NCBI GenBank assembly: GCA_947063675.1 | Contig: CAMSTM010000010.1 | Span: 1-41,511 of the forward strand | Reading direction: 5' to 3' | DNA length: 41,511 nt | Source: an uncultured Lachnospiraceae bacterium | GTDB taxonomy: Bacteria > Bacillota > Clostridia > Lachnospirales > Lachnospiraceae | Part shown: positions 10,020 through 23,068 of the stretch, piece after piece | Position numbering within the stretch: position 1 is the first letter of the stretch | How the letters are laid out: each line of letters begins with the position of its first letter | Notes under the pieces: generated by a model | The model's database searches: none | Told to the model about the DNA's origin: nothing | Seen by the model: only the letters and a program-made list of their open reading frames with translations | Translations under genes and position numbers: made by a program

Positions 10020-10988
10020 ATGAAGCTTGGCGTTATGACAGTGCTTTTGGGAAATATGACATTGAAGGAAACATTGAGTTATCTGAAAAGCTTAGGCGTG
10101 CAGCAGGTGGAAATCGGGTGCGGGGGAACTCCCGGCACATCCCATGCAGACGCGGTGGAATTTATGGAAAATCCGGTATTGCTTCGGGAATTTAAAGAAA
10201 CAATAGCGGAGTCAGGACTTAGTGTGGCGGCGCTTGCCTGTCATGGGAATCCGGTACACCCGAATAAGAAAATTGCGGATGGGTATCACAGGCAGTTTGA
10301 GGCGGCAATCTGTCTGGCAGAGGAAATCTCAGTTAATACAGTTATTGGATTTTCCGGCTGCCCCGGAGACTGTGAGAAATCAGAATATCCTAATTGGGTT
10401 GTGGCTACATGGCCCGATGACTTTCAGAAAATTAAAGAGTGGCAGTGGAATGAAAAGCTGATTCCTTACTGGAAAAGAGAGGCAGAGTTTGCGAAAAGCC
10501 ACCATGTGAGCCAGATTGCATTGGAAATGCATCCGGGATTTAACGTATATAATCCCGAAACGTTATTAAGGCTGCGTGATGCTGTGGGAGATGTGATTGG
10601 AGCCAATTTTGACCCGTCCCATTTATTCTGGCAGGGAATTGACCCGGTTGCAGCCATAAGAGCGCTGGAGGGAGCCATTTATCATTTTCATGCAAAAGAC
10701 ACGGCCATAGATACTTATAACTGCAACGTTAACGGTGTGCTTGATACGAAAAAATTCAGTCAGGTAAAAGAGAGAAGCTGGATATTCCGAACCGTTGGCT
10801 ACGGACACGGCGAAGAGGTATGGAGAAACATATTCAGCGAATTAAGGCGTGTGGGGTATACCGGAGTGATTTCCATTGAACACGAAGACGGTCTCATGAC
10901 GATTAAAGAGGGGCTGGAAAAAGCAATTGAGTTCCTAAAAGCCAATATGATTTTTGAAGATGAAAAAACGGAAATGTATTGGGCATAA
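10020..10988 (+). CDS. TIM-barrel sugar isomerase/epimerase
   Basis: A 322-aa member of the xylose-isomerase-like (AP endonuclease 2) family that includes inositol and ketose epimerases. Likely metal ligands are seen in order: E169 (IALEMHPG), D198 and H201 (FDPSHLFW), H224 (YHFHAKD) and E287 (ISIEHED). Together they form the usual divalent-metal site. GGAGG lies before the ATG. It is the last gene of the LacI operon and would interconvert the oxidised sugar or inositol intermediate. The three enzymes together suggest an oxidise-rearrange-reduce route, but the compound is not identifiable. Confidence 0.92.
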   Translation: MKLGVMTVLLGNMTLKETLSYLKSLGVQQVEIGCGGTPGTSHADAVEFMENPVLLREFKETIAESGLSVAALACHGNPVHPNKKIADGYHRQFEAAICLAEEISVNTVIGFSGCPGDCEKSEYPNWVVATWPDDFQKIKEWQWNEKLIPYWKREAEFAKSHHVSQIALEMHPGFNVYNPETLLRLRDAVGDVIGANFDPSHLFWQGIDPVAAIRALEGAIYHFHAKDTAIDTYNCNVNGVLDTKKFSQVKERSWIFRTVGYGHGEEVWRNIFSELRRVGYTGVISIEHEDGLMTIKEGLEKAIEFLKANMIFEDEKTEMYWA

Positions 10989-11021
10989 TCAACGACTTGT
11001 ATTGGAAAGCCAGATTACCAC

Positions 11022-11050
11022 TTGCCAATAACCGGAAGAAAGGGTAAACT
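11022..11050 (+). promoter_or_regulatory. Promoter of the flavin reductase gene
   Basis: TTGCCA at 11022-11027, a 17-base spacer, and TAAACT at 11045-11050. It lies 52 bp before the start codon of the next gene and separates that gene from the LacI operon. Confidence 0.5.
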
Positions 11051-11102
11051 AAAATCAACAAAAGAGTAAACTACGGCAAAGCGGAAAGGCGGACAATAAA
11101 TT

Positions 11103-11603
11103 ATGAATAAAAATGTTTTTCACAAGCTTTCTTATGGAGTGTATGTGGTAAGCACATGGGACAATGGCAGGCCTACGGGGTGTACGGCGAACAGCGCCAT
11201 GCAGATTACCTCGACGCCGGCTACCATTGCGGTCAGCATTAATCATGACAATTACACAAATAAGTGCATCAATGAGACCGGGAAATTTGCAATTTCCATT
11301 ATGGCGGAGGACTCAACCCCTTCTATAATAGGAACATTCGGCTTCAGGTCGGGGAAAGATAACGACAAGTTTGCCGAGGTGGAATATCAGGTGAGAGATT
11401 ATCTTCCGGTGGTTTCCGATGCCTGCGGCTATATTGTCTGCGATGTGATTGACAGGATGGAAACAGCGACCCATACGGTATTCTTAGGCGAGGTAAAGGG
11501 AGCGGAGCTTTTTGGCGACAGGGAGGCTATGACCTACAATTATTATCATAAGGTAATCAAGGGAAAGAGCCCTAAGAATGCGCCTACCTATATCGCAGAT
11601 TAA
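11103..11603 (+). CDS. Flavin reductase-like FMN-binding split-barrel protein
   Basis: A 166-aa protein of the flavin reductase domain family. It begins with the typical LSYGVYVVSTWDNGRPTGCTA and continues with ATIAVSINHDNYTNKCI and KFAISIMAE. It matches the flavin domain found alone or fused to rubredoxin in anaerobes, where it passes electrons to oxygen-detoxifying or other redox partners. No rubredoxin or flavodiiron domain is attached. The binding site is AAAGGCGG. It stands alone after its own promoter and is not obviously linked to the sugar operon. Confidence 0.9.
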   Translation: MNKNVFHKLSYGVYVVSTWDNGRPTGCTANSAMQITSTPATIAVSINHDNYTNKCINETGKFAISIMAEDSTPSIIGTFGFRSGKDNDKFAEVEYQVRDYLPVVSDACGYIVCDVIDRMETATHTVFLGEVKGAELFGDREAMTYNYYHKVIKGKSPKNAPTYIAD

Positions 11604-11692
11604 AGGATTTATCCGAAAATGATGTTGGACATGCAGACGGGGCTTTGTTATCCGGTGTCGGCGTCTGCTGCGGAAAGTGATATTTGTGATGC

Positions 11693-11750
11693 AAAGAGGG
11701 GTGCTGCTTTGAGTATTTCAAAATTCATGCAGCATGCCTCTTTTGGCATG
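11693..11750 (+). promoter_or_regulatory. Two mutually exclusive hairpins ahead of the S4-domain gene
   Basis: AAAGAGG (11693-11699) plus TGCTGC (11702-11707) pair with GCAGCA (11729-11734) plus CCTCTTT (11737-11743), forming a 13-bp stem with a small internal mismatch. Its right arm overlaps a second perfect hairpin, CATGCC (11733-11738) with GGCATG (11745-11750). The first resembles a weak terminator with four T. The second would disrupt it. The rest of 11604-11763 holds no gene I can support. Confidence 0.45.
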
Positions 11751-11763
11751 AAGGGAAAAACCA

Positions 11764-12531
11764 ATGGAATCAGAAGAATTACTGAAAAAGCGTTTCAGGG
11801 AGCTGGCCCAAAAGTCCTATCAGAATAATCAGTTTACGTTTACAGGATTTTTAAGCCTTGCGGATATGGCCTGTTTTTATGAGCTGGAAAAGGAGCTTTC
11901 CTACATTCCCTGCAGGGCATGGGGCGGGAGCGCGCTTTGCGAGCGGGTAATGCTCCGCTTTGGAAGCGAGGAGGAGTTTGGATATGTGGAGGAATTTCCA
12001 ATCGCATGTATTCAGGCAAGGCCCGCTGCGGAAAAGTTTGCAGATACGCTGACCCACAGAGATTTTCTGGGGGCGCTTATGAACCTGGGGATAGAGAGAA
12101 GTACGCTGGGGGATATTTTTCTGGCGGACAATGCGGGCTATATTTTCTGTCTGGAAAGTATGGCGGATTTTATTATGGAAAACCTAAGCAAGGTGAAGCA
12201 CACTCTGGTTTTGTGCAGCAGAGCGGAGCGCGTGCCCGAACTGACAGACAGGGACAGGCAGGAGATAACCATCCAGATTTCATCGGAACGTGTGGACGGG
12301 GTGGTGGCGAAGGTGTACAGGCTGTCCCGGGGAGACGCTGCGGATTGCTTTCGTCAGAAAAAGGTGTTTGTGAACGGCAGACAGTGCGAAAATAACAGTT
12401 ATCAGTTAAAAAAAGATGATGTGGTGAACGTGAGAGGATTTGGAAAATTTGAATATTCCGGCGGTCAGGGGTTGAGCAGGAAAGGGAAAATAAACGCGGC
12501 TGTTATGGTTTACGGGAAATATCAAAGGTAA
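11764..12531 (+). CDS. YlmH-like S4-domain RNA-binding protein
   Basis: A 255-aa protein with the YlmH layout: an N-terminal RRM-like region (TFTGFLSLADMACFYELEKE), a middle domain (RDFLGALMNLGIERSTLGDI, then FLADNAGYIFCLE), and a C-terminal S4 RNA-binding domain from about 178 (DGVVAKVYRLSRGDAADCF, KKVFVNGRQCEN, DVVNVRGFGKFEY). In Bacillus YlmH binds stalled 50S-tRNA complexes in ribosome-associated quality control and is encoded in the division-gene cluster. Here it is away from that cluster. GAAGGG serves as binding site. Confidence 0.9.
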   Translation: MESEELLKKRFRELAQKSYQNNQFTFTGFLSLADMACFYELEKELSYIPCRAWGGSALCERVMLRFGSEEEFGYVEEFPIACIQARPAAEKFADTLTHRDFLGALMNLGIERSTLGDIFLADNAGYIFCLESMADFIMENLSKVKHTLVLCSRAERVPELTDRDRQEITIQISSERVDGVVAKVYRLSRGDAADCFRQKKVFVNGRQCENNSYQLKKDDVVNVRGFGKFEYSGGQGLSRKGKINAAVMVYGKYQR

Positions 12532-12543
12532 GGAGAATCGGAA

Positions 12544-13461
12544 ATGCTGTTGGAACAAATGATAGTGCTTTTTCTGCTGATGGGAGTTGGATTCCTTTGT
12601 TATAAAAAGTCGCTGATTACAGACGAGATGAGTAAAAAGCTGTCGTCCATTGTTGTGAATGTGGCAAATCCGGCGCTGGTTTTGACGGCGTGTATGGGCG
12701 AAGAAAAAATTCGGGGGGAAGAGCTTATCACAACGGTCGTAATCATGGGCGTGATGTACCCGGCGCTCCTGTTGCTGGGGGTGATTCTGCCTAAGATACT
12801 TAAGGTTGAAAAGAATGCCCGGGGAACTTACAGCGCTATGACGGTTTTTTCCAATATAGGGTTTATGGGGTTCCCGGTGATTACCGCGCTATATGGAAAC
12901 GGCGCGCTTCTCTACGCAACTCCCTTTGTCATTATCTATAATGTCCTGATTTACACCTACGGCGTGTCGTCCATCAGAGGAGATAAAAAAACGGAAAGCG
13001 GGAAGGGTTCGCTCGCATTTAAGGAATTGTTAAATCCAGGTATGATTTCATGTATAATAACATTAATTATATATTTGCTTGATATGAGAGTGCCCGCTTT
13101 TCTGCAGGATGCAGTAACGCATTTGAGTAATCTGACAGCGCCTTTAAGCATGATGATTATTGGCGCGTCCCTTGCGGTAATGGATGTGAAAAGGCTTTTT
13201 ACGGACGGGAAGCTTATTGCTTTTTCTGTGATTAAGCTGCTGCTCGTCCCCATAGCCGGTATTTTCATTATTGCACGGTTTGTGGAAAATCCGGTAATTC
13301 TCGGGGTATGTATGGTAATGCTGGCAACGCCGGTGGGGAGCATGAACGCAATGCTGGCCCAGCAGTATGACGGGGATTACGAGACAGCTTCCAAAGGAGT
13401 TGCGCTGACCACGATTCTGTCGGTGGCGACGATGCCCCTGATAGCGGTGCTTATGCTGTAG
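12544..13461 (+). CDS. AEC-family (auxin efflux carrier-like) transporter
   Basis: A 305-aa membrane protein with about ten predicted spans in two repeats. Family signatures are LLMGVGFLCYKKSLITDEM, VNVANPALVLTA, FSNIGFMGFPVITALYG, and the late segment MLATPVGSMNAMLAQQY. Members move malate, other organic anions or auxin-like compounds; the substrate here is unknown. It follows the S4 gene by 12 bp with AAGGAG and is likely co-transcribed. Confidence 0.92.
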   Translation: MLLEQMIVLFLLMGVGFLCYKKSLITDEMSKKLSSIVVNVANPALVLTACMGEEKIRGEELITTVVIMGVMYPALLLLGVILPKILKVEKNARGTYSAMTVFSNIGFMGFPVITALYGNGALLYATPFVIIYNVLIYTYGVSSIRGDKKTESGKGSLAFKELLNPGMISCIITLIIYLLDMRVPAFLQDAVTHLSNLTAPLSMMIIGASLAVMDVKRLFTDGKLIAFSVIKLLLVPIAGIFIIARFVENPVILGVCMVMLATPVGSMNAMLAQQYDGDYETASKGVALTTILSVATMPLIAVLML

Positions 13462-13480: not shown

Positions 13481-13509
13481 TTGACATATTACGACTGCTG
13501 TGATAGTCT
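13481..13509 (+). promoter_or_regulatory. Promoter of the blaI-type gene
   Basis: TTGACA at 13481-13486, a 17-base spacer, and TAGTCT at 13504-13509 preceded by TGA, an extended -10. The -10 hexamer is embedded in a repressor-type dyad (13493-13508), so binding there would block RNA polymerase. Confidence 0.75.
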
Positions 13510-13536
13510 TTAGATAGGGGGACTATTTCAGTAGTC
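13493..13536. promoter_or_regulatory. Tandem BlaI-type operators
   Basis: Two 16-bp dyads of form GACTR-N6-TAGTC lie at 13493-13508 and 13521-13536. The first overlaps the -10 hexamer and the second covers the start of the transcript. The same dyad occurs twice more at 15601-15641. Winged-helix BlaI/MecI dimers bind short dyads of this size and often occupy tandem sites. Assignment to the adjacent repressor is inference. Confidence 0.7.
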
Positions 13537-13620
13537 GTTTTAATGTAAAGAGAACAATCGGAGCAGGGCAGACACAAATTTGAGATTTGAGATTTGGGAT
13601 TTTGCAGAATGGAGATTAAG

Positions 13621-13992
13621 ATGAAATTATTTGATTCGGAACGAAAGGTAATGGAGGTGCTCTGGCGGGAAGGCGGAATTTCTGCCGGGCAGGTGGTAAA
13701 GATTTTAAAGGAAGAAACAGGGTGGAACAAAAACACCACCTATACGGTGATTAAAAAATGTGTGGATAAGGGCGCGGTCAAAAGGGAGGAACCGGGTTTT
13801 ATCTGCAGACCTTTAATTTCCAGGCAGGAGGTACAGGAATTTGAAACAGAGGAACTGATTGATAAAATGTTTGACGGTTCTAAGGAAAAGTTTTTTGCTG
13901 CTTTTTTAGACGGGAAGAAGCTGTCAAATCAGGAGGTTGATTCATTAAAGAGAATGATTGATGATTTAAGCCGGGAAAGGAGACAGGAATGA
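13621..13992 (+). CDS. BlaI/MecI/CopY-family repressor
   Basis: A 123-aa winged-helix repressor. It begins KLFDSERKVMEVLWREGGIS and has the recognition region WNKNTTYTVIKKCVDKGAV. A C-terminal helical dimerisation part follows, with KEKFFAAFLDG where the staphylococcal protein is cleaved by its sensor. Starts at 13594 or 13609 are possible; ATG 13621 is preferred because GGAG lies 6 bases upstream. It overlaps the M56 gene by four bases. The expected circuit is repression of its own promoter and of 15589, relieved when the M56 protease is triggered. Confidence 0.93.
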   Translation: MKLFDSERKVMEVLWREGGISAGQVVKILKEETGWNKNTTYTVIKKCVDKGAVKREEPGFICRPLISRQEVQEFETEELIDKMFDGSKEKFFAAFLDGKKLSNQEVDSLKRMIDDLSRERRQE

Positions 13993-15569
13993 ATTTGATA
14001 CAGATGAGTGCCGCGGCAGGTGTTTTGATTTTGGGCATTGTTTTGTTCCGCTCTTTGTTTATACACCGGCTGCCCAAGAAAGTGATGATACTGCTCTGGG
14101 AAATTGCAATTTTGCGCCTGATGATTCCTTTTTCAGTTCCGTTGCCGATGCCTGCGCCTTTGACAGAAATCAGAAGCCTTATCGTGAGTGAAAATTCCGG
14201 GGAGGCTAAAACGGAAACGTACGGTATTTCGGCCGTGACAGGGGAAGAGGCGATTACGCAGGGCGGCCGGGCCGCTTTATATATTGCAGAGAAATCAGAA
14301 GCTGGTTTAGGGAAGGCGGCGGCAGTGGTTTATCTGGCTGTAACCGTTATTTTGCTGGCGGGTTCCCTTTTTGTTTATACCAGAGACAGCCGTCTGTTTC
14401 GGGAAGGGCTGCCCATGCCGGAGCAGGAGAGGGAAAAATTGCTTGCAATGGAGGGGATAAGGGAAAAAGACGTAAAGGTTTTAGATAAAGTAAGGTTTCA
14501 GATTTCTGACCGGACTGCAACACCCGTAACTTATGGCCTGCTTCGTCCTGCAGTGGTTTTTCCCAAAGGGCAGTATTTAAAAGAGGGAAAAGAGGTGAGC
14601 TTCTGTCTGCAGCATGAACTGATACATATTATAAATCATGATAATTTAAAAAAGCTGGCAGCGCATTTGGCGCTTTGTATTCACTGGTTTAATCCTCTTG
14701 TGTGGGTGATGTATGTTTTGTTTAACCGGGATATGGAGCTTTTGTGTGATGAGACGGTGGTGCAAAGAAATAATGGCTGCAGGCAGGAATATGCGCTTAC
14801 GCTGTTATCACTGGCCCAATGCAGGAATATGGGATTTCAGACAGGCCTGGGATTCGGGAAAAATGCGGTAAAAGAAAGAATTGTAGCGGTGATGACAATG
14901 AAAAAGACGACCTTTATCGGCATATTGGCAACTGTCATTGCGCTGACAAGTGCATTAACGGTGTTTGTTACCAATACTGTTTCTGATACCCGGGATGAGG
15001 CAGAGGCATCCGCAGCCGGGACATATGTCGTGTCAGATACGCCTGAATGGGTAAGCGTTACCTGGAAAGAAACAGCTGCGGAGGCGGCAGAGCAATCCTC
15101 CGTTCTGGAAACACGGGTATATTCAAATAAGGTGCTGCAGTCAGAGGGAGCAGTTTATGTGACAACAGACTCTGAAGTGGAATTATCCGATGCTGTAGTG
15201 CAAGTGCAGGAAGCAGTGTCGGAAGAAGCCGAAGCCGTGGATGACACAGTCTATGAGGGGACAGGGCTGGATGAAGGCATGAAAGAAACAATAGAGGGAT
15301 TGATAAGCGAATTTGAGATGTATGGGTTAAGCGGAGAAGTAAAAGACGACGACTATCAGCTTTATTTTAATGGAGAGCCTGTCTACTTTTTGGCTGATAA
15401 CCAAAAACGGAATGGGGACGGATTTTCAGGAAGAGTGTTTGCAAAAGAGGCAGGTGCAGCAAACGGCAACACGGGAGTGATTACAAAATATAATGACGAC
15501 GGGGTGCTCGTCGGGCTGGTGCAGCTCTCCGAAAAGGATTCCAGGGTTTATGCCCGTTCATATTGGTAA
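13989..15569 (+). CDS. BlaR1-like M56 membrane metalloprotease with an unusual extracellular domain
   Basis: A 526-aa sensor protease. N-terminal spans lie near 7-25, 33-52 and 108-130. The zinc site is H209-E210-L-I-H213 with E250 in RDMELLCDE, and a further span lies at 309-329. The active site is complete. Unlike BlaR1 and MecR1 there is no penicillin-binding sensor domain. Residues 330-526 are instead an acidic, Ala/Glu/Val-rich stretch (about 335-425) and a small terminal domain (QLYFNGEPVYFLADN to the end). The signal sensed is therefore unknown and need not be a beta-lactam. It is co-translated with the repressor. Confidence 0.9.
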   Translation: MNLIQMSAAAGVLILGIVLFRSLFIHRLPKKVMILLWEIAILRLMIPFSVPLPMPAPLTEIRSLIVSENSGEAKTETYGISAVTGEEAITQGGRAALYIAEKSEAGLGKAAAVVYLAVTVILLAGSLFVYTRDSRLFREGLPMPEQEREKLLAMEGIREKDVKVLDKVRFQISDRTATPVTYGLLRPAVVFPKGQYLKEGKEVSFCLQHELIHIINHDNLKKLAAHLALCIHWFNPLVWVMYVLFNRDMELLCDETVVQRNNGCRQEYALTLLSLAQCRNMGFQTGLGFGKNAVKERIVAVMTMKKTTFIGILATVIALTSALTVFVTNTVSDTRDEAEASAAGTYVVSDTPEWVSVTWKETAAEAAEQSSVLETRVYSNKVLQSEGAVYVTTDSEVELSDAVVQVQEAVSEEAEAVDDTVYEGTGLDEGMKETIEGLISEFEMYGLSGEVKDDDYQLYFNGEPVYFLADNQKRNGDGFSGRVFAKEAGAANGNTGVITKYNDDGVLVGLVQLSEKDSRVYARSYW

Positions 15570-15588
15570 TTTCTTTTGAAAAAACGGA

Positions 15589-15641
15589 TTGACAGAATGC
15601 GACTACTGTGATAGTCTAATTGAAAGACTATCACAGTAGTC
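15589..15641 (+). promoter_or_regulatory. Second BlaI-type promoter/operator, upstream of the transporter block
   Basis: TTGACA at 15589-15594, 17 bases, and TAGTCT at 15612-15617 preceded by TGA: the same architecture as at 13481. Dyads GACTACTGTGATAGTC (15601-15616) and GACTATCACAGTAGTC (15626-15641) repeat the operator motif. The arrangement is a copy, in better form, of the blaI control region. It should drive the lipoprotein-permease-HlyD genes. Confidence 0.7.
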
Positions 15642-15652
15642 GCATTTTTTTA
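15596..15652 (+). terminator. 22-bp perfect hairpin with T-run, downstream of the M56 gene
   Basis: Bases 15596-15617 are the exact complement of 15625-15646 around a 7-base loop, and seven T run from 15645 to 15651. For transcripts from the blaI promoter this is a very strong intrinsic terminator. Its arms are also the two operator dyads, and the left arm holds the spacer and -10 of the next promoter, so the element is dual-use. Confidence 0.8.
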
Positions 15653-15713: not shown

Positions 15714-18113
15714 ATGGCACGGAAAACAGTGAAAAGATTAATAAGTATGGCTTTGGCAGCAGTAATTTTGTTTACCCCGGGTTGCGGGAATTCAAATGAA
15801 GGAAATCTTCCTTTTGCGGAAAATGAAAAAAAGAATGAACAGGGAAACGGTGATTCAGATATCGCTATGGGGCGTTATGAGGAGGAAGAAACTGACCTGT
15901 CAGATAATCTGGCAAATGTCAGGGAACTGAAAAGGTTTTCCGACGGAAGGCTTGTGATTACCGATGCGTCTTCAGGAATATGGGTGTCAAATGACAACGG
16001 AGTTTCGTGGGAAAATGAAAATACAAAGTATCTGGAGGAAAAACTGGCAAACACTTATATCATGGATATGGGAGTGGGAGAAGAGGGGACTTTGGGCATT
16101 ATTTATGATGATTACGAGGATTCGCTGTCTGAAGAAAAGGAAGAGGAGGAAGAAAAGTTACCGGAAGGCGGGGAAGATGAAGATTCAGAAGAATCAGATT
16201 CTGTGTTTGGCCTGTCGCCGGAATGTGCATTAGTAAGGACAGACGGCACAGTAGTTCCGGTTTCTCTTTCTTTGACAGAGGATGAGATGTATGCCAACAG
16301 AATCTGGATGACCAGAGAAGGAAGAGCCTTTGTAACTACCCTTGGGAATATTATTTATGAGGTAAAAGAGGATGGCAGCAGCGAGGAATTTCTCAGGGTG
16401 GAAGGCAGGCCGATGCTGATACAGTTCAGGGATAATATCATGCTGATAGACGGATACGACTTTGAGGCGCCGCTTCTTTATGATATGGAAAAAAAGGAGT
16501 ATGTGGAGGATGGCATCCTTTCGGACTTTGTAAAGAACAATGGGGGAGACAGACAGTTTAACGGCGGAAGCTGGTATGATATCTTTTACTTTTTTGGAGA
16601 AGAAGGAAAGCTGTATCTGGCAGGTGAAAAGGGGCTGTACAGTCATACGGCAGGGCAGGAGGAGATGGAACAGTTAATTGACGGAAATTTGTCCCGCTTA
16701 GGAAGCCCTCAATATGGGATAAAGGGTATGGTGATGTTGGAAAATGACGTGTTTCTGGCTGTTTTTAACAGCGGAAAGGCTGTAAGGTTTACTTATAATC
16801 CCGATATCCCGTCTATGCCGGAGGAATGTCTTAAGGTGTACAGTCTTGAGGAAAGTTATGGAATGCGGACAGCAATTGCTGCCTGTCAGATAGCAAACCC
16901 GAATGTGCGTGTGGAATATGAGATTGGCATGGGGGAAGATAACGGGGTGACCAGAGAGGATGCATTAAAGAAATTAAATACCCGGATTATGGCCGGAGAG
17001 GGGCCGGATGTCCTGATGATGGACGGACTGCCTGCGGATTCTTACATAGAAAAGGGGCTGCTGCATGATTTGAATGAGTTTATGGAAACTGTCTTTAAAG
17101 AAGAGGAGTTATATGAAAATCTGGTCAGGGCGTTTGCACATGGGGAAAGCATTTATATGGTTCCAATGCAGGCGGGGTTTCCTGTTATGCTGGGGAGAGA
17201 GGGTTATGTTTCCGGGATGAAGAACCTTGCGTCTGTGGCGGATGAAATGGAAAAAATACGCAGGGATTATCCGGAGAAAGATATTTTAGGCATATGCTCG
17301 GAGAAAGCGCTTATGAAGATTTTTTCGGTTTCCAGCGAGCCTGCATGGAAAAAAGAAAACGGGGAAATCAACGAGGATGCTGTAGCGGAATTCCTGACCC
17401 AGATGAAAAGAATTTATGATGCGCAAATGGACGGAGTCGGTCAAAGGTGGGTGGACAGGTTTCAGTCAACCAGCGATTGGTACGGGGAGGAGCTTGGAGA
17501 AAACTGGGAATATAATCTTGGACTTTATGGAGTAAACACTTTGGATTATGTGGGAGAATACACCCGGTTTATGGCAGGTATGACTACCTATCCTTACGGC
17601 TATTACGATATTACTTCCGCGGCAAAGACAAAGGGATTTGAAGATACGGTTTTGGCGCCTATGGCAGGACAATGCAGCAATGTTTTTGCACCGGATACGA
17701 TTCTGGGAATTAATGCGGCGTCAGATAAGAAAGAGCTGGCGGAGGATTTTCTGAAGGAATTTATGGGGAAAGAGGTTCAGATGTCATTAGGAGGATTCGG
17801 AATAAATAAGGCGGCTTTTGATGAAATGCTTACAGCAGATAAAGAGGAGAGCGGGGAAAATAATCAGTATGGCTCTGTGGCAATGATTGATGAAGACGGA
17901 ATAGAAGTGCATCTGGACGTATATTATCCGGAGGAAGAAGAACTGAATGTATTGAAAAAATGGATGGAGTCGGCAGATACGCCTTATATTGCAGATATTG
18001 TTTTTGAACAGGCCATATTTGAGGAAGGCGCGGAATATATCCGGGGAAACCAAAGCCTTGAGGAGACGCTTAAGGAGATTAGGAATCAGCTTGCCATTTA
18101 TATGTCTGAGTAA
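15714..18113 (+). CDS. Two-part extracellular solute-binding lipoprotein
   Basis: A 799-aa lipoprotein. The signal peptide ends in TPGC (Cys24). Residues about 60-370 look like a beta-propeller with sialidase/BNR flavour (FSDGRLVITDASSGIWVSND). They are interrupted by a very acidic loop (EEKEEEEEKLPEGGEDEDSE). From about 375 to the end lies a family-1 substrate-binding fold: CQIANPNVRVEYEIG, LNTRIMAGEGPDVLMMDGLP, IYMVPMQAGFPVMLG, and FAPDTILGINAASDKKELAE. The usual binding protein is 400-550 aa, so this is a fusion. ATG 15714 is chosen over an earlier frame opening (15666) because of AGGAGG and the signal peptide. The ligand is unknown; permeases follow at 18156 and 19021. Confidence 0.88.
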   Translation: MARKTVKRLISMALAAVILFTPGCGNSNEGNLPFAENEKKNEQGNGDSDIAMGRYEEEETDLSDNLANVRELKRFSDGRLVITDASSGIWVSNDNGVSWENENTKYLEEKLANTYIMDMGVGEEGTLGIIYDDYEDSLSEEKEEEEEKLPEGGEDEDSEESDSVFGLSPECALVRTDGTVVPVSLSLTEDEMYANRIWMTREGRAFVTTLGNIIYEVKEDGSSEEFLRVEGRPMLIQFRDNIMLIDGYDFEAPLLYDMEKKEYVEDGILSDFVKNNGGDRQFNGGSWYDIFYFFGEEGKLYLAGEKGLYSHTAGQEEMEQLIDGNLSRLGSPQYGIKGMVMLENDVFLAVFNSGKAVRFTYNPDIPSMPEECLKVYSLEESYGMRTAIAACQIANPNVRVEYEIGMGEDNGVTREDALKKLNTRIMAGEGPDVLMMDGLPADSYIEKGLLHDLNEFMETVFKEEELYENLVRAFAHGESIYMVPMQAGFPVMLGREGYVSGMKNLASVADEMEKIRRDYPEKDILGICSEKALMKIFSVSSEPAWKKENGEINEDAVAEFLTQMKRIYDAQMDGVGQRWVDRFQSTSDWYGEELGENWEYNLGLYGVNTLDYVGEYTRFMAGMTTYPYGYYDITSAAKTKGFEDTVLAPMAGQCSNVFAPDTILGINAASDKKELAEDFLKEFMGKEVQMSLGGFGINKAAFDEMLTADKEESGENNQYGSVAMIDEDGIEVHLDVYYPEEEELNVLKKWMESADTPYIADIVFEQAIFEEGAEYIRGNQSLEETLKEIRNQLAIYMSE

Positions 18114-18155: not shown

Positions 18156-19019
18156 GTGGCAAAAAAGAAAAAAAGGTTTTTCTGTGTGTTTGTATTTCCG
18201 GGGCTTTTGGGAATCCTGCTCTTTGTGCTGCTTCCCTTTGCGGATGTGGTGAAGAGGTCCTTTACCACAGCGGTGACAGGACAGTGGAACGGCCTGAAAA
18301 ATTACGGGACGATTTTTCATAATCAGGCATTTGTACTGGCGGTAAAGAACACGTTAAGGTTTACGGGTATCTGTATTCCTCTCCTGGTTTTTACAGGATT
18401 TTCCATTGCCCTTTTGCTGAATGGACTAAAGAGCAAAAAGCGGATAAAGTCCGTATTCCTTTTCCCGCTTGCCATGCCTACCGCTACTGTTGTACTGGTA
18501 TGGAAGCTGGTGTTTTACAGGCAGGGTTTTTTAAATTTATTTCTTTCCCGCCTGGGGGAAATGACAGGTTTGTGGGGGGAGATACATATGGACTATCTTG
18601 GCTCAAATGCCGCCTTCTGGGTTTTGGCCGGAAGCTATATCTGGAAAAACACAGGCTATACGGTAATTTTGTGGCTGGCGGGAATTGGGGGGTTACCTGC
18701 GGAGCTTTCGGAGGCGGCAAAGGTGGACGGTGCAGGAAAATGGCAGCGTTTGCGGTATATAATTCTGCCAAATTTGAGGGGAAGCCTTTATACCATCGTT
18801 GTTTTATCTTTCCTCAATTCCTTTAAAATCTATCGGGAGGCCTATTTGACAGCAGGCGCTTATCCGGATAAAAGTATTTATCTTTTGCAGCATCTTTTTA
18901 ATAACTGGTTTGTAAATCTGGAGCTGGATAAGATGGCGGCGGCAGCGGTGTGCACGGGCGGTATTTTAATGGTGGTGAATTTACTTTTGCAGAAATTGTG
19001 GGACAGGCAGGAGGCATAG
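18156..19019 (+). CDS. Sugar-type ABC permease (first of pair)
   Basis: A 287-aa membrane protein starting at GTG with GGGAG nine bases before. Spans begin at residues 9-30 (FVFPGLLGILLFVLLPFADV), and the EAA loop reads ELSEAAKVDGAGKWQRLRYI. The sequence is of the MalF/UgpA type. It partners the lipoprotein at 15714 and the permease at 19021. As with the first transporter there is no ATPase gene next to it. Confidence 0.92.
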   Translation: MAKKKKRFFCVFVFPGLLGILLFVLLPFADVVKRSFTTAVTGQWNGLKNYGTIFHNQAFVLAVKNTLRFTGICIPLLVFTGFSIALLLNGLKSKKRIKSVFLFPLAMPTATVVLVWKLVFYRQGFLNLFLSRLGEMTGLWGEIHMDYLGSNAAFWVLAGSYIWKNTGYTVILWLAGIGGLPAELSEAAKVDGAGKWQRLRYIILPNLRGSLYTIVVLSFLNSFKIYREAYLTAGAYPDKSIYLLQHLFNNWFVNLELDKMAAAAVCTGGILMVVNLLLQKLWDRQEA

Positions 19020-19020
19020 C

Positions 19021-19914
19021 ATGAGGGTGGACAAAGGTAAAGTAATGAAATTTCTTCGGCTGACCGGAAAGGGACTTAAAAAAGGCGGGGCAGCTTTCCT
19101 GCTTCTTTTTCCGGCTGCGCTGGTGATAAGCCCGCTCCTTCTTTTACTGTCCGGTTCTCTTATGGACAGATTGGAAATGGGAAAATACATAGGCACAGTG
19201 TTTACGGAAGGAACGGAGTTCATCCGCTGGAAGCTGATGCCTGATTATCCTTCCTTTGCAAATTATAAAAAGCTGTTGTTTGAAACGCCACAGTTCTTTG
19301 TCCTGTTTTGGAATTCCATGAAGCTTACATTCTGCATTTTATTGGGACAGCTCCTTGTGGCAGTCCCGTCAGCCTGGGGATTTGCCGTATATCCGGTAAA
19401 GGGAAGCAGCTTTATTTTTACATTATATGTGGTACTGATGCTTCTCCCCTTTCAGGTAACGATGCTGTCAGGGTATCTTGTTTTGAGCCGGTTGTCGCTT
19501 TTAAATACCCATCAGGCAATTATTCTGCCCGCGGTGTTTTCCACTTTTCCGGTGTTTTTATCATATGGGGGATTCAGAGGAATACCGCCCCAAATGCTGG
19601 AGGCGGCAAGGATGGACGGTGCAGGGGAGTTTACCATATTTGTAAGGCTGGGGCTTCCCCTTGGGAAAAGCGGCCTGCTTTCGGCTATGGTGCTGGGCTT
19701 TTTGGAATACTGGAATATGATGGAGCAGCCTATGGCATTTTTGGAGGAAAAAGCGCTCTGGCCCTTATCCTTATATCTGCCGGAAATTACCTGGGATGCC
19801 GCCGGATATGCATTTTGCGCCAGTGTAATCACGCTGATTCCTGCAGTATTTGTGTTTATATCAGGGCAGGATTATCTGGAGCAGGGGATTATTTATTCCG
19901 GGTTAAAAGCATAA
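19021..19914 (+). CDS. Sugar-type ABC permease (second of pair)
   Basis: A 297-aa MalG/UgpE-type permease beginning one base after the previous stop. The EAA loop is MLEAARMDGAGEFTIFVRLG. The first span is at about residues 22-42. The N-terminal loop GTVFTEGTEFIRWKLMPDYP (about residues 59-78) is longer than usual. It presumably forms the channel with the product of 18156. Confidence 0.92.
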   Translation: MRVDKGKVMKFLRLTGKGLKKGGAAFLLLFPAALVISPLLLLLSGSLMDRLEMGKYIGTVFTEGTEFIRWKLMPDYPSFANYKKLLFETPQFFVLFWNSMKLTFCILLGQLLVAVPSAWGFAVYPVKGSSFIFTLYVVLMLLPFQVTMLSGYLVLSRLSLLNTHQAIILPAVFSTFPVFLSYGGFRGIPPQMLEAARMDGAGEFTIFVRLGLPLGKSGLLSAMVLGFLEYWNMMEQPMAFLEEKALWPLSLYLPEITWDAAGYAFCASVITLIPAVFVFISGQDYLEQGIIYSGLKA

Positions 19915-19941: not shown

Positions 19942-21234
19942 ATGAAGAAGGTTATCACTGGATTTGCAGTTTTTTTGGGATTTATGGTTATCTGCACTTT
20001 GATTTCTAAAAGTGTGTACGCTTACAGGCTCCCCGTGGTAAGCACCTGTGAGCCGGAATCCAAATACATAGAACATAAGGTGCAGGCGGAAGGGATTGTA
20101 GAGGCAGGAGGGGAAAAGACGGTTACCTGTCTGCCGGGGCTGCGGATTGATTCGGTTCTGGTTCATGTGGGAGAGAAAGTTGAGGAGGGAGATGCGCTGT
20201 TTCAGGTAGATTTGGCGGATATAAAGAAACTGATGGAAGAAAAGCAAAACGAAATATCCAGGGTGTCTTTTCAAATCAGCGCAATCCTGGAAAATCAGGC
20301 CGCCAGGGAGCAAAAAAGAGAGCTGGAGCTCGCCCGGGCAAGGGAGGATTATGACACCACGTCGCGTCTGCAGGATACCCAGGTGGGGCGGGCAATGGAA
20401 AGCTATGTCCAGGCGGAAAATGATTTGGAAGAAAACGGGGGAGATGAAGAATTAAAGGATGCGCTTCAAAGCGCCGCTTATGGAGAAGCGGATTCCAAAG
20501 CTGCGCGGGACGAAGCTGTAAAACAGGCGCAGAGAAAGGTGGAGGATATTCTTCTGCCGGAGGATGTTTCGGCAGAACTTGAAACTGCCAGACTGGAGCA
20601 GAGATTACTTTCTGAAAGCTTGCAGGAATATCAAAAGGTTTTAGACAATCAGGGGGTAGTGAGGGCTCCCTTTGGCGGTGTTGTCACTAAAGTGGCAGTC
20701 GGAGCAGGGGAGAGGGTTCCGGATACTGCGGTTATACTTCTATCCGACGAAAGTCTTCCCTGCCAGTTAAAAATCGTACTTGATAAAGAGCAGAAAAAGT
20801 ATATCGGTCTGGGAGAACAGGTTCAGATAAGATTGGAAGGAAAAAGCAGGGAGCTGGAAGCGAAAATAGATTATCTGGCCGAGAGCGAAGGCAGCCCCGA
20901 AAAATATGAGGCCCTTATCATCCTTCCAGAAGGAACCGGAGTACCGGGAATGTCAGGGGTGGTTTCCCGGTCTGAAAACGGAGAAAAACACAGCCTCTGC
21001 CTTCCGGCTGACGCGGTGCATTCGGAAAATGAAAGAAATTATGTTTATCTGCTGAAAGAGCGGGAAGGAATTCTGGGTCAGGAATACTATGTGGATGAAA
21101 TAAATGTAAGGGTGGCAGATAAAAATGATAACTGGGCGGCGGTAGAGGAAGGCGTATTGGATAAGGAAAGCAGAATTATTTTATCTGCTGCGAAGGAAGT
21201 GGAAAAGGGGGAAACCGTGCGCTGGGAGGAGTGA
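19942..21234 (+). CDS. HlyD-like membrane fusion / efflux adaptor protein
   Basis: A 430-aa adaptor. One N-terminal span lies at residues 5-27. A split biotinyl-lipoyl domain follows (TCLPGLRIDSVLVHVGEKV and later VVRAPFGGVVTKVAVGAGER), enclosing a long helical hairpin (about 90-235) with coiled-coil pattern. The C-terminal beta-barrel part is at LPCQLKIVLDKEQKKYIGLG and beyond. Such proteins normally serve MacB-type exporters or secretion systems. Finding one as the last gene of an uptake-type cluster is unusual, and no exporter lies beside it. It begins 27 bp after the permease. Confidence 0.88.
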   Translation: MKKVITGFAVFLGFMVICTLISKSVYAYRLPVVSTCEPESKYIEHKVQAEGIVEAGGEKTVTCLPGLRIDSVLVHVGEKVEEGDALFQVDLADIKKLMEEKQNEISRVSFQISAILENQAAREQKRELELARAREDYDTTSRLQDTQVGRAMESYVQAENDLEENGGDEELKDALQSAAYGEADSKAARDEAVKQAQRKVEDILLPEDVSAELETARLEQRLLSESLQEYQKVLDNQGVVRAPFGGVVTKVAVGAGERVPDTAVILLSDESLPCQLKIVLDKEQKKYIGLGEQVQIRLEGKSRELEAKIDYLAESEGSPEKYEALIILPEGTGVPGMSGVVSRSENGEKHSLCLPADAVHSENERNYVYLLKEREGILGQEYYVDEINVRVADKNDNWAAVEEGVLDKESRIILSAAKEVEKGETVRWEE

Positions 21235-21415: not shown

Positions 21416-23068
21416 ATGAGTATTGTAATCAATTTAATAGCTGCTCCCCGGAGAATATCACCGGATAAATGGAAGGAAGTATACGGGGAATCCCTGATAC
21501 TTTTGCAGGCTTATGATTTCATGGACAGGTTTCCGACACAGAGGAACGGCCGGGAATACCATTATGCCGGAAAGAGCCGGGATGTGGAGAACTTTCTGGA
21601 TACAGGTTATCATGGCTGGCGTTCGGTGGGGGATATGCGGACCGGGGACAATACGGAGGAGTTTATTGTTTTTGGCGATATTCATGCCTGTTTGCCGCCG
21701 GAGCAGGAGGAGGACGGGGGCGGCGATATTCTTTTAAGTATTCTGGACGGCGGGATGGGCATTGGTGCGGCGGCGAAGCCGGAATGCTGTGTTAATTTAT
21801 GGGGCGGGCGAACGGAAGGGGAGGACAGCCATATTTATCTGCTGGCTGTGGGCTGCCTTTTCGCGTCCCGTTTTCCGGAAGCGGTGACGGTAACCGGCAG
21901 TATTTCCGCGGGACAGTGCAGAAAAGCAGTAAGATGGGCAAACCGGTATCTGGACAGGGATATTCATGTTCCTGATATCGGAAGTATGGACAGGCTGCTT
22001 GAACGCCTGAAAAGCACGGCTATCCCCCGTGAAAAATTAATGGAGGCTTTTTTCGGGCTGACTATTGAGCCCAGAACACATAATATGGGAGAATATTTGC
22101 GCAGAGAGTTTACAGAGGAAGAAATATCTTCCTATTATAAACAGCGCCTTGCAAAATTCCGCTCAGGCCAGCGGGGATTTGTTTCCGTCTTAAAGGAATA
22201 TCTTGAAATGGGATTTTCCTTTAAGGCGCTGTGCAGGCTGGCGGTATGCGAAAGCGGCGGGCCGAAAGCGCCTCCGGAGGAGTTTATCATACATGTGATG
22301 AATTCCAGATTGTATATAAAAGAAAAGGAAACCGGCGATTTTACAAGGCTTTCAGCGCTGGGGGAGGACGGCGGCGAAGTGGATTCAAAGCGGCAGGAGG
22401 TTGGCAGGATTCTGGGGATGCTCTGCGGGGCGGAAAACAGAAATGTAAACGCGTATTATCCATTGGATAAAATCAGACGGGACTGCCGGGAGGCGATTGG
22501 CGGTTTATGTGATACAGACGGCATCATAGATAAGTTTCTGGCATCCGAAAGAGAAAGTGAAAAAATAAAGGGAGGGCAGGTCAGCCTGCAGGCGCTTCTC
22601 TATGATTTGCCGCACAGCATTTTCCGGCAGGAGGGGGAGAGGTGCGGAGGGGAGAGAGAACAGAAATATGATGTCGGGGCTTATAAGGAACTGGGAAGCT
22701 TTTTCCCCGGGTGCAGTATGAGACCGGAGCTTGAGGCTGATTTACTTAAGAATTTCAGGGCGATTCATCGGTATGCAGAGAAGGAGTTTAAGAAATTCAG
22801 GCTTCTGGACAGAACGGAGCGCGAAAATTATCTGATATCAAATAATCAAAGGGTATTGATTCGCAAAAATATCTGGGACAGAATTTTTGAAAGGATAATG
22901 GAGGATGCGTATATCATACGGATTTTTGGAATTTTTGGCGTAAACACCATGCGGGAAGAGGGCTTTCTTTTTTGCAGGAATGTACTGGCAAGCCTTGATG
23001 CCATAGATTATTTTTGGGAAAGGACGGCGGATGAAATCCAGAGAAATGAAACAGATACAGGAAAATGA
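21416..23068 (+). CDS. Hypothetical protein, 550 aa
   Basis: I recognise no family. The start is supported by GAGG seven bases upstream. No signal peptide or membrane span is present. The N-terminal half contains FGDIHACLPP, LLSILDGGMGIGAAAKP and IYLLAVGCLFASRFPEAVTV, suggesting an alpha/beta domain. The middle (about 230-330) is helical (EFTEEEISSYYKQRLAKFR). The last ~100 residues are rich in basic and aromatic helices (KNIWDRIFERIMEDAYIIRI). Its 3' end overlaps the HTH gene by 38 bp, so the two are co-expressed. A cytosolic role with the HTH protein is all that context supports. Confidence 0.85.
   Translation: MSIVINLIAAPRRISPDKWKEVYGESLILLQAYDFMDRFPTQRNGREYHYAGKSRDVENFLDTGYHGWRSVGDMRTGDNTEEFIVFGDIHACLPPEQEEDGGGDILLSILDGGMGIGAAAKPECCVNLWGGRTEGEDSHIYLLAVGCLFASRFPEAVTVTGSISAGQCRKAVRWANRYLDRDIHVPDIGSMDRLLERLKSTAIPREKLMEAFFGLTIEPRTHNMGEYLRREFTEEEISSYYKQRLAKFRSGQRGFVSVLKEYLEMGFSFKALCRLAVCESGGPKAPPEEFIIHVMNSRLYIKEKETGDFTRLSALGEDGGEVDSKRQEVGRILGMLCGAENRNVNAYYPLDKIRRDCREAIGGLCDTDGIIDKFLASERESEKIKGGQVSLQALLYDLPHSIFRQEGERCGGEREQKYDVGAYKELGSFFPGCSMRPELEADLLKNFRAIHRYAEKEFKKFRLLDRTERENYLISNNQRVLIRKNIWDRIFERIMEDAYIIRIFGIFGVNTMREEGFLFCRNVLASLDAIDYFWERTADEIQRNETDTGK

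Follow-up and report, generated by a model that had tools for sequence, protein, structure and literature searches.

Paired operator-like dyads at a BlaI/M56 operon and a solute-binding transporter operon suggest a proteolytic switch in Lachnospiraceae

In this study, we analysed a 41,511-nucleotide stretch of DNA from an uncultured Lachnospiraceae bacterium (GenBank assembly GCA_947063675.1, contig CAMSTM010000010.1; hereafter the window), in which the genes for a BlaI-type repressor and an M56 membrane metalloprotease stand in front of a transporter cassette, all on the forward strand. The repressor gene, blaI (13621..13992), encodes a Penicillinase_R protein of 123 residues (Pfam PF03965, E-value 1.9e-26), whose score of 93.1 bits against a cut-off of 22.6 places it in the BlaI/MecI family. 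It matches MecI and BlaI structures by sequence, and its recognition helix reads NKNTTYTVIKKC. The adjoining gene (13989..15569) encodes the M56 protease (PF05569, E-value 1.5e-39) with the zinc-protease motif HELIH; residues H209, E210 and H213 of this HEXXH motif are invariant in 20 M56 sequences. The match of this protein to Staphylococcus aureus BlaR1 and to BlaR1 structures is confined to residues 3-271, and its C-terminus is formed by another extracytoplasmic domain of about 90 residues.

The cassette opens with the gene for a lipoprotein (LipoSBP, 15714..18113), which has an N-terminal region of unknown fold followed by an extracellular solute-binding domain of the SBP_bac_1 family at residues 394-690 (PF01547). 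Two genes for importer-type permeases of the BPD_transp_1 family (PF00528) follow, perm1 at 18156..19019 and perm2 at 19021..19914, and the final conserved gene encodes a membrane-fusion adaptor of the HlyD/RND type (19942..21234). The permeases and the adaptor were assigned with Pfam and NCBIfam, and the adaptor gene holds the same place in relatives. The solute-binding protein and the two permeases, with EAA-type loops that were read by eye, are features of CUT1-type importers. The earlier note on this DNA had spoken of an ABC transporter block of lipoprotein, permease and HlyD genes; these gene types are present, with the amendment that there are two importer-type permeases and no ATPase gene.

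Each of the two units is preceded by a pair of 16-bp dyads. The earlier note had described four GACTR-N6-TAGTC dyads in two tandem pairs, and a pattern scan of the window found GACTRNNNNNNTAGTC exactly at all four places: 13493..13508 (dyad 1, GACTGCTGTGATAGTC), 13521..13536 (dyad 2, GACTATTTCAGTAGTC), 15601..15616 (dyad 3, GACTACTGTGATAGTC) and 15626..15641 (dyad 4, GACTATCACAGTAGTC). As putative operators, they are assigned to neither strand. Their description needs refinement: every dyad is itself nearly palindromic, and the two members of a pair jointly form one larger inverted repeat; in dyad 1 (GACTG...TAGTC), one arm position is broken, giving one mismatch on the minus strand. When up to one mismatch was allowed, the window contained 10 strand-wise matches to GACTRNNNNNNTAGTC versus a mean of 1.72 in shuffled windows, where the largest count was 7 and none of 100 reached 10. 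We also ran the genome-wide scan that the earlier note had called for: in the 3.7-Mb genome, exact GACTRNNNNNNTAGTC was found at the four window places and at one other (C13:15929), and a reversed control pattern was commoner, with 10 forward and 10 reverse matches versus 4 and 4 for GACTRNNNNNNTAGTC. The bare 16-mer is therefore not rare, and it is the pairing of the dyads, their place in the promoters and their conservation that give the argument its weight.

Dyads 1 and 3 lie within the spacers of two predicted promoters on the forward strand. The blaI promoter (13481..13509) consists of TTGACA at 13481-13486, a 17-bp spacer and TAGTCT at 13504-13509, and the transporter promoter (15589..15617) has the same elements at 15589-15594 and 15612-15617, with TGA before the -10 element in both. 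The arrangement TTGACA-17-TAGTCT, which had been claimed for each dyad pair, is accordingly present at both. Neither promoter was reported by a consensus promoter scan of the window, and we call them promoters because they are conserved in relatives, not for their consensus score. In a set of 44 promoters (21 of blaI, 22 of LipoSBP, including two repeats of the same place, and one of perm1), TAGTCT or TAGTAT invariably lies 17 bases past TTGACA/T. TGA precedes the -10 element in 40 of the 44; the exceptions have TAA (blaI promoters of loci L059 and L136) or TGG (blaI promoter of L133 and LipoSBP promoter of L055). Where a second dyad exists in this set, it starts 22 to 29 bp past the start of the first. 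Given this spacing, a transcript from the promoter would not include the first dyad, and the second dyad would fall at the expected start region.

The combination of promoter and dyad is conserved among relatives. We scored 330 bp upstream of the relatives' genes for TTGAC plus a dyad. Both elements were found at 22 of 23 blaI loci, comprising all 20 orthologues (at least 79% identity, in 20 genomes) and two of three genes at 58-63% identity. A second dyad was present in 17 of the 20 orthologous promoters, the remaining three (L059, L062 and L136) holding only the first. For LipoSBP, 43 loci were scored, of which three were second copies of the same place, leaving 40 distinct loci. Among those with at least 50% identity (type A), 19 of 20 had a promoter-dyad, each with two dyads, versus 0 of 20 at 44% identity or less, where one lone dyad without a promoter was seen (L076). 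The sole type-A exception, genome G015 (L064), also has no BlaI ortholog. Shuffles of the same upstream stretches led us to expect a dyad at 0.40 of the 23 blaI loci and 0.85 of the 43 LipoSBP loci. A set of 80 loci from named genomes gave 19 of 20 at 50% identity or more and 0 of 60 below, but largely repeats the same genomes, L159 being the one clearly new type-A case.

The promoter-dyad persists in genomes where blaI has been displaced or the lipoprotein gene lost. Promoter-dyads were found upstream of perm2 at 0 of 41 loci, of the HlyD-type gene at 0 of 40 and of perm1 at 1 of 42; in this last case, G013, there is no LipoSBP gene at this place, the M56 gene is directly followed by perm1, and a paired dyad stands before perm1. 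The corresponding count upstream of M56 (2 of 24 loci with a dyad, 1 with a promoter) was set aside, the entry for L058 having come from a truncated match. In G009, G032 and G035, the blaI-M56 genes lie apart from the cassette (about 10 kb away, separated by several genes and on a different contig, respectively), yet dyads are present at both. Across 37 genomes of the window's genus, a BlaI ortholog and a dyad-bearing cassette occur together in 18, one without the other in 2 and 2, and neither in 15 (Fisher 1.7e-6, kinship ignored). Two genus-wide scans used patterns drawn from promoters already seen, so that recovery of those promoters was by design; what the scans can tell lies in the controls and in how few sites fell elsewhere. 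The strict scan gave 25 sites in 20 of the 37 genomes and 0 in the reversed control. The relaxed scan gave 45 sites in 24 genomes, with 14 in the reversed control; 22 of the sites were before blaI-family genes and 20 before LipoSBP or perm1, and the search for a wider regulon in the 37 genomes returned the other 3.

The type of dyad also goes with the recognition helix of the repressor. Nine Penicillinase_R matches were found in this genome, one of them barely above the cut-off, and eight M56 genes adjoin them. We compiled 46 BlaI-family genes with upstream DNA, leaving uncounted L014 and L006, the latter without a match at the BLAST cut-off. All 24 genes with the helix TTYTVIKKC have the 16-bp dyad, 23 of them with TTGAC in range. 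None of the 14 genes with the helix TTYTLIKRC has it, and 13 have a shorter dyad of the type AGACTGTAGTAGT, a 13-bp motif that was read off these same sequences and has no shuffle control; the other 8 genes have neither dyad type. Such helix-operator matching suggests how the eight BlaI/M56 pairs of the genome could stay mutually insulated. Within the short-dyad subfamily (L111:9035 and L119-L131), 10 genes have a second, inverted copy of the AGACTGTAGTAGT type.

The same four-gene cassette occurs as a paralogue in many Lachnospiraceae, and this genome has its own copy on contig C18. These paralogous cassettes (L163, L158 and C18) share the LipoSBP-permease-permease-adaptor order of the window and are associated with regulator and kinase genes and with TTAGAGA repeats, whereas the window cassette has BlaI dyads. 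We read four such type-B loci (L163 of Parablautia intestinalis, L158 of Kineothrix alysoides, L184 and L223) and found genes for an OmpR-type regulator and a histidine kinase on the opposite strand in each, an assignment checked with Pfam for L163 only. An extra small lipoprotein-like gene is present in three of the four, and two other genes lie between the two-component genes and the cassette in L223 (G015). Within the 1300 bp upstream, 18 of the 20 type-B loci L064-L083 carry the direct repeat TTAGAGA-N-TTAGAGA, compared with none of the 20 type-A loci, for a pattern chosen after inspection and without a shuffle control. A permease tree of 51 rows groups all 21 BlaI-dyad cassettes into a single clade (97/91, and 99% of 200 bootstrap trees), and the nearest branches outside it, L072/L079 and L064, have TTAGAGA repeats. 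A single clade with TTAGAGA-bearing neighbours is most simply read as one switch from two-component to BlaI/M56 control. In the sister lineage G015, the TTAGAGA repeats persist, two-component genes lie close by and no BlaI ortholog is present. The tree and the promoters together suggest that the regulator was replaced once, in the ancestor of the BlaI-dyad cassette clade, a reading that is new with this analysis.

We consider it likely that the window encodes a two-operon proteolytic switch, in which BlaI controls both blaI-M56 and the transporter, and which replaced an OmpR-type system once. Judged from sequence, BlaI very probably represses its own operon and the transporter. Joint control of the two units, as put forward in the earlier note, gains support from the conserved promoter-dyads, the retention of dyads after separation of the units, the helix matching, the co-occurrence and a published half-site described below. 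In the proposed mechanism, BlaI dimers would bind the paired dyads in both promoters; with the first dyad overlapping the -35 and -10 elements and the second at the start region, blaI-M56 and the transporter operon would both be off. An extracytoplasmic signal would be received by the C-terminal domain of M56, not by a penicillin-binding domain, and would activate the zinc protease. BlaI would then be inactivated, perhaps by a cut before the Phe of AAF (A94-F95), and the transporter and the sensor would be made together.

Several points weigh against this switch. Cleavage of S. aureus BlaI is reported at Asn101-Phe102, and autocleavage of BlaR1 at Ser283-Phe284 (PMC9834060). In an alignment to MecI, the Asn101-Phe102 position corresponds to A94-F95 of the window BlaI, so that the Phe is retained and the Asn of the cleavage site is replaced by Ala. 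The -10 elements in the window are weak by consensus, TAGTCT agreeing with TATAAT at 3 of 6 positions. Pfam and NCBIfam found no MalK-type ATPase gene in the cassette; one is encoded elsewhere in the genome, at C113, and each of five relatives yields 2 to 5 matches of this kind (E <=1e-40). In genomes G025 (96% complete, 8% contaminated) and G031 (78% complete), the cassette dyad is present but no BlaI reaches 79% identity, and G030 and G016 have blaI with its own dyad and no dyad-bearing cassette. The TTAGAGA repeat was found in only 5 of 12 further loci, and the way in which this repeat and the 13-bp motif were chosen counts on the same side. Finally, a second BlaI in this genome, at C3:37466, is 61% identical, has the same helix and a related dyad, and could bind the same sites.

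This last protein leads to the first alternative, in which a different repressor, such as the C3:37466 paralogue, or both repressors occupy the transporter dyads, so that control would not rest with the neighbouring BlaI alone. The shared recognition helix, related dyads such as ACTACCGTGATAGT, and the persistence of the operator in G025 and G031 without a close BlaI would fit such an arrangement. However, a second same-helix BlaI (E <=1e-30) occurs in 2 of 20 dyad-cassette genomes (G000 and G022), compared with 18 of 20 for the adjacent type, and we regard control by another repressor as unlikely.

Alternatively, the dyad pairs could be mainly intrinsic terminators or RNA hairpins, their common sequence reflecting duplication and no common repressor. 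Dyads 3 and 4 do form a terminator-like hairpin (15598..15651, forward strand), with a 20-pair stem at 15598-15644 followed by T7, placed to end blaI-M56 transcripts. The predicted folding energy is -36.3 kcal/mol (z -11.4) for the 57-nt RNA of this transporter-side pair and -27 kcal/mol (z -7.2) for the first pair. In the set of 44 promoters, 12 to 14 of the 14 positions of a second dyad, where present, can pair with the first, G-U included, and L055, L057 and L134 have runs of 6 or 7 T after the pair on the blaI side. Several observations speak against this reading. Past the LipoSBP pair, a T-run of at least 6 is seen in the window and otherwise only in L046, L047 and L048, the three nearest relatives. 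G032 has a divergent gene upstream of LipoSBP, which leaves no co-directional transcript to end there, and the pair is nevertheless kept. Three blaI promoters lack the second arm and retain the first within TTGAC-N-TAGTCT, as a DNA operator could; these first-dyad-only promoters, together with the predicted position of the first dyad outside the transcript, favour a DNA operator over an RNA element. BlaI paralogues of another helix are, moreover, preceded by a different dyad. We rejected a pure terminator as the main function because few relatives have the T-runs and the promoter-dyads are conserved, and we judge this explanation highly improbable; a terminator role looks secondary and is retained as such for the window's subclade.

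We rejected as scarcely credible a conventional beta-lactam sensor that simply has a transporter as its output: although the M56 and BlaI families are those of BlaR1 and BlaI, a sequence search detected no penicillin-binding or transpeptidase domain in the M56 protein (residues 330-526 have no Pfam match) and the resemblance to BlaR1 does not extend past residue 271. For the proposed BlaI/M56 switch, wall-active antibiotics are thus not the obvious inducer.

With the last 100 residues of M56 as the query, 20 of the 37 genomes gave a match, exactly those with a BlaI ortholog. Four of these genomes gave one additional match each, two of them in divergent M56-like proteins (G008 and G019), which were named by reading the sequence. 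The M56 C-terminal domain would thus be a small mobile extracytoplasmic domain with no sign of a penicillin-binding fold. Two lipoprotein-like proteins, at L227:2957-3850 (G028) and L228:2785-3678 (G022), gave weak matches to it (E 5e-6 and 5e-5), and they are encoded downstream of regulator and kinase-like genes, as read by eye. A paired dyad of the same type stands before the gene for a small secreted-looking protein at L221:1064-1727 (G022:C106) and L222:1477-2139 (G029:C106). This protein shares 44-45% identity with the C-terminal portion of M56 from a paralogous BlaI/M56 pair (L111) and could be a soluble copy of a sensor domain under the same operator.

More tentatively, a histidine-kinase system and an M56/BlaI pair may have been exchanged in front of the same hybrid transporter, an unusual one that would combine importer-type permeases and a solute-binding lipoprotein with an efflux-type adaptor. 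M56 might then sense the state of the envelope, or a ligand, through the small mobile domain that is also present in lipoproteins encoded beside two-component genes. Should the proposed switch hold, BlaI/M56 regulation in gut Lachnospiraceae would reach beyond antibiotic resistance into transport. Its sensor domain would not be a penicillin-binding protein, so that other M56/BlaI pairs may also sense something else. It would further provide a clean case of regulator replacement before the same operon, with G015 as the sister lineage.

CopY and TcrY belong to the same repressor superfamily, and the window BlaI scores 66.3 bits with their model TIGR02698, below the cut-off of 121.95. CopY controls a copper ATPase, whereas the window BlaI is partnered by an M56 protein and putatively controls a solute-binding transporter. 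The BlaI and MecI operators of Staphylococcus and Bacillus licheniformis are of the TACA-TGTA type, in contrast to the putative operator GACTR-N6-TAGTC of the window, which also differs from these systems in its sensor, without a penicillin-binding domain, and in its transporter output. The repressor family, the M56 protease and the logic of a sensor that cleaves the repressor are shared with BlaI-BlaR1 and MecI-MecR1 (PMC9834060). The closest experimental precedent that we have seen appears to be BlaI_1845 of Clostridium thermocellum, for which a GACTAT half-site was determined by DAP-seq and EMSA, with four sites as inverted pairs before its own operon (PMC8457756). BlaI_1845 and BlaI_0696 use GACTAT or GTCTAT half-sites with two inverted repeats per promoter (four protomers), as proposed here, and, like the proposed window system, are autoregulated with a BlaR1 gene and have a tiny regulon. 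The targets are given either as the own operon plus two hypothetical genes, of which one encodes a putative peptidoglycan-synthesis homologue, or as a sensory operon plus a hypothetical gene; a solute-binding transporter, as in the window, is not among the targets described there (PMC8457756).

The earlier note had restricted known BlaI systems to beta-lactamases, PBPs or copper genes. This was too narrow: mycobacterial BlaI reportedly represses Rv1303, which is co-transcribed with ATP synthase genes (PMC12565901). Among the papers listed in the literature searches, judged by title and opening of the abstract, none dealt with a BlaI/M56 pair controlling a solute-binding transporter.

Some minor features of the cassettes and paralogous pairs may be added. 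A Pfam scan gave no credible match for the N-terminal region of the lipoprotein, where an Asp-box-like stretch is an impression only. Just past the cassette, an open reading frame for 550 amino acids (21416-23068) has no match in Pfam or NCBIfam, and none is listed in the 40 relatives' loci compared, whose flank lengths vary. The type-B cassette at L066 (G030:C19) has two tandem genes for solute-binding lipoproteins. On contig C3 of this genome, at L085:7452-8997, a second BlaI/M56 pair shares the recognition helix, has related dyads and is followed by a gene that reads as glycosidase-like, and L085 has a further BlaI/M56 pair at 10836-13367.

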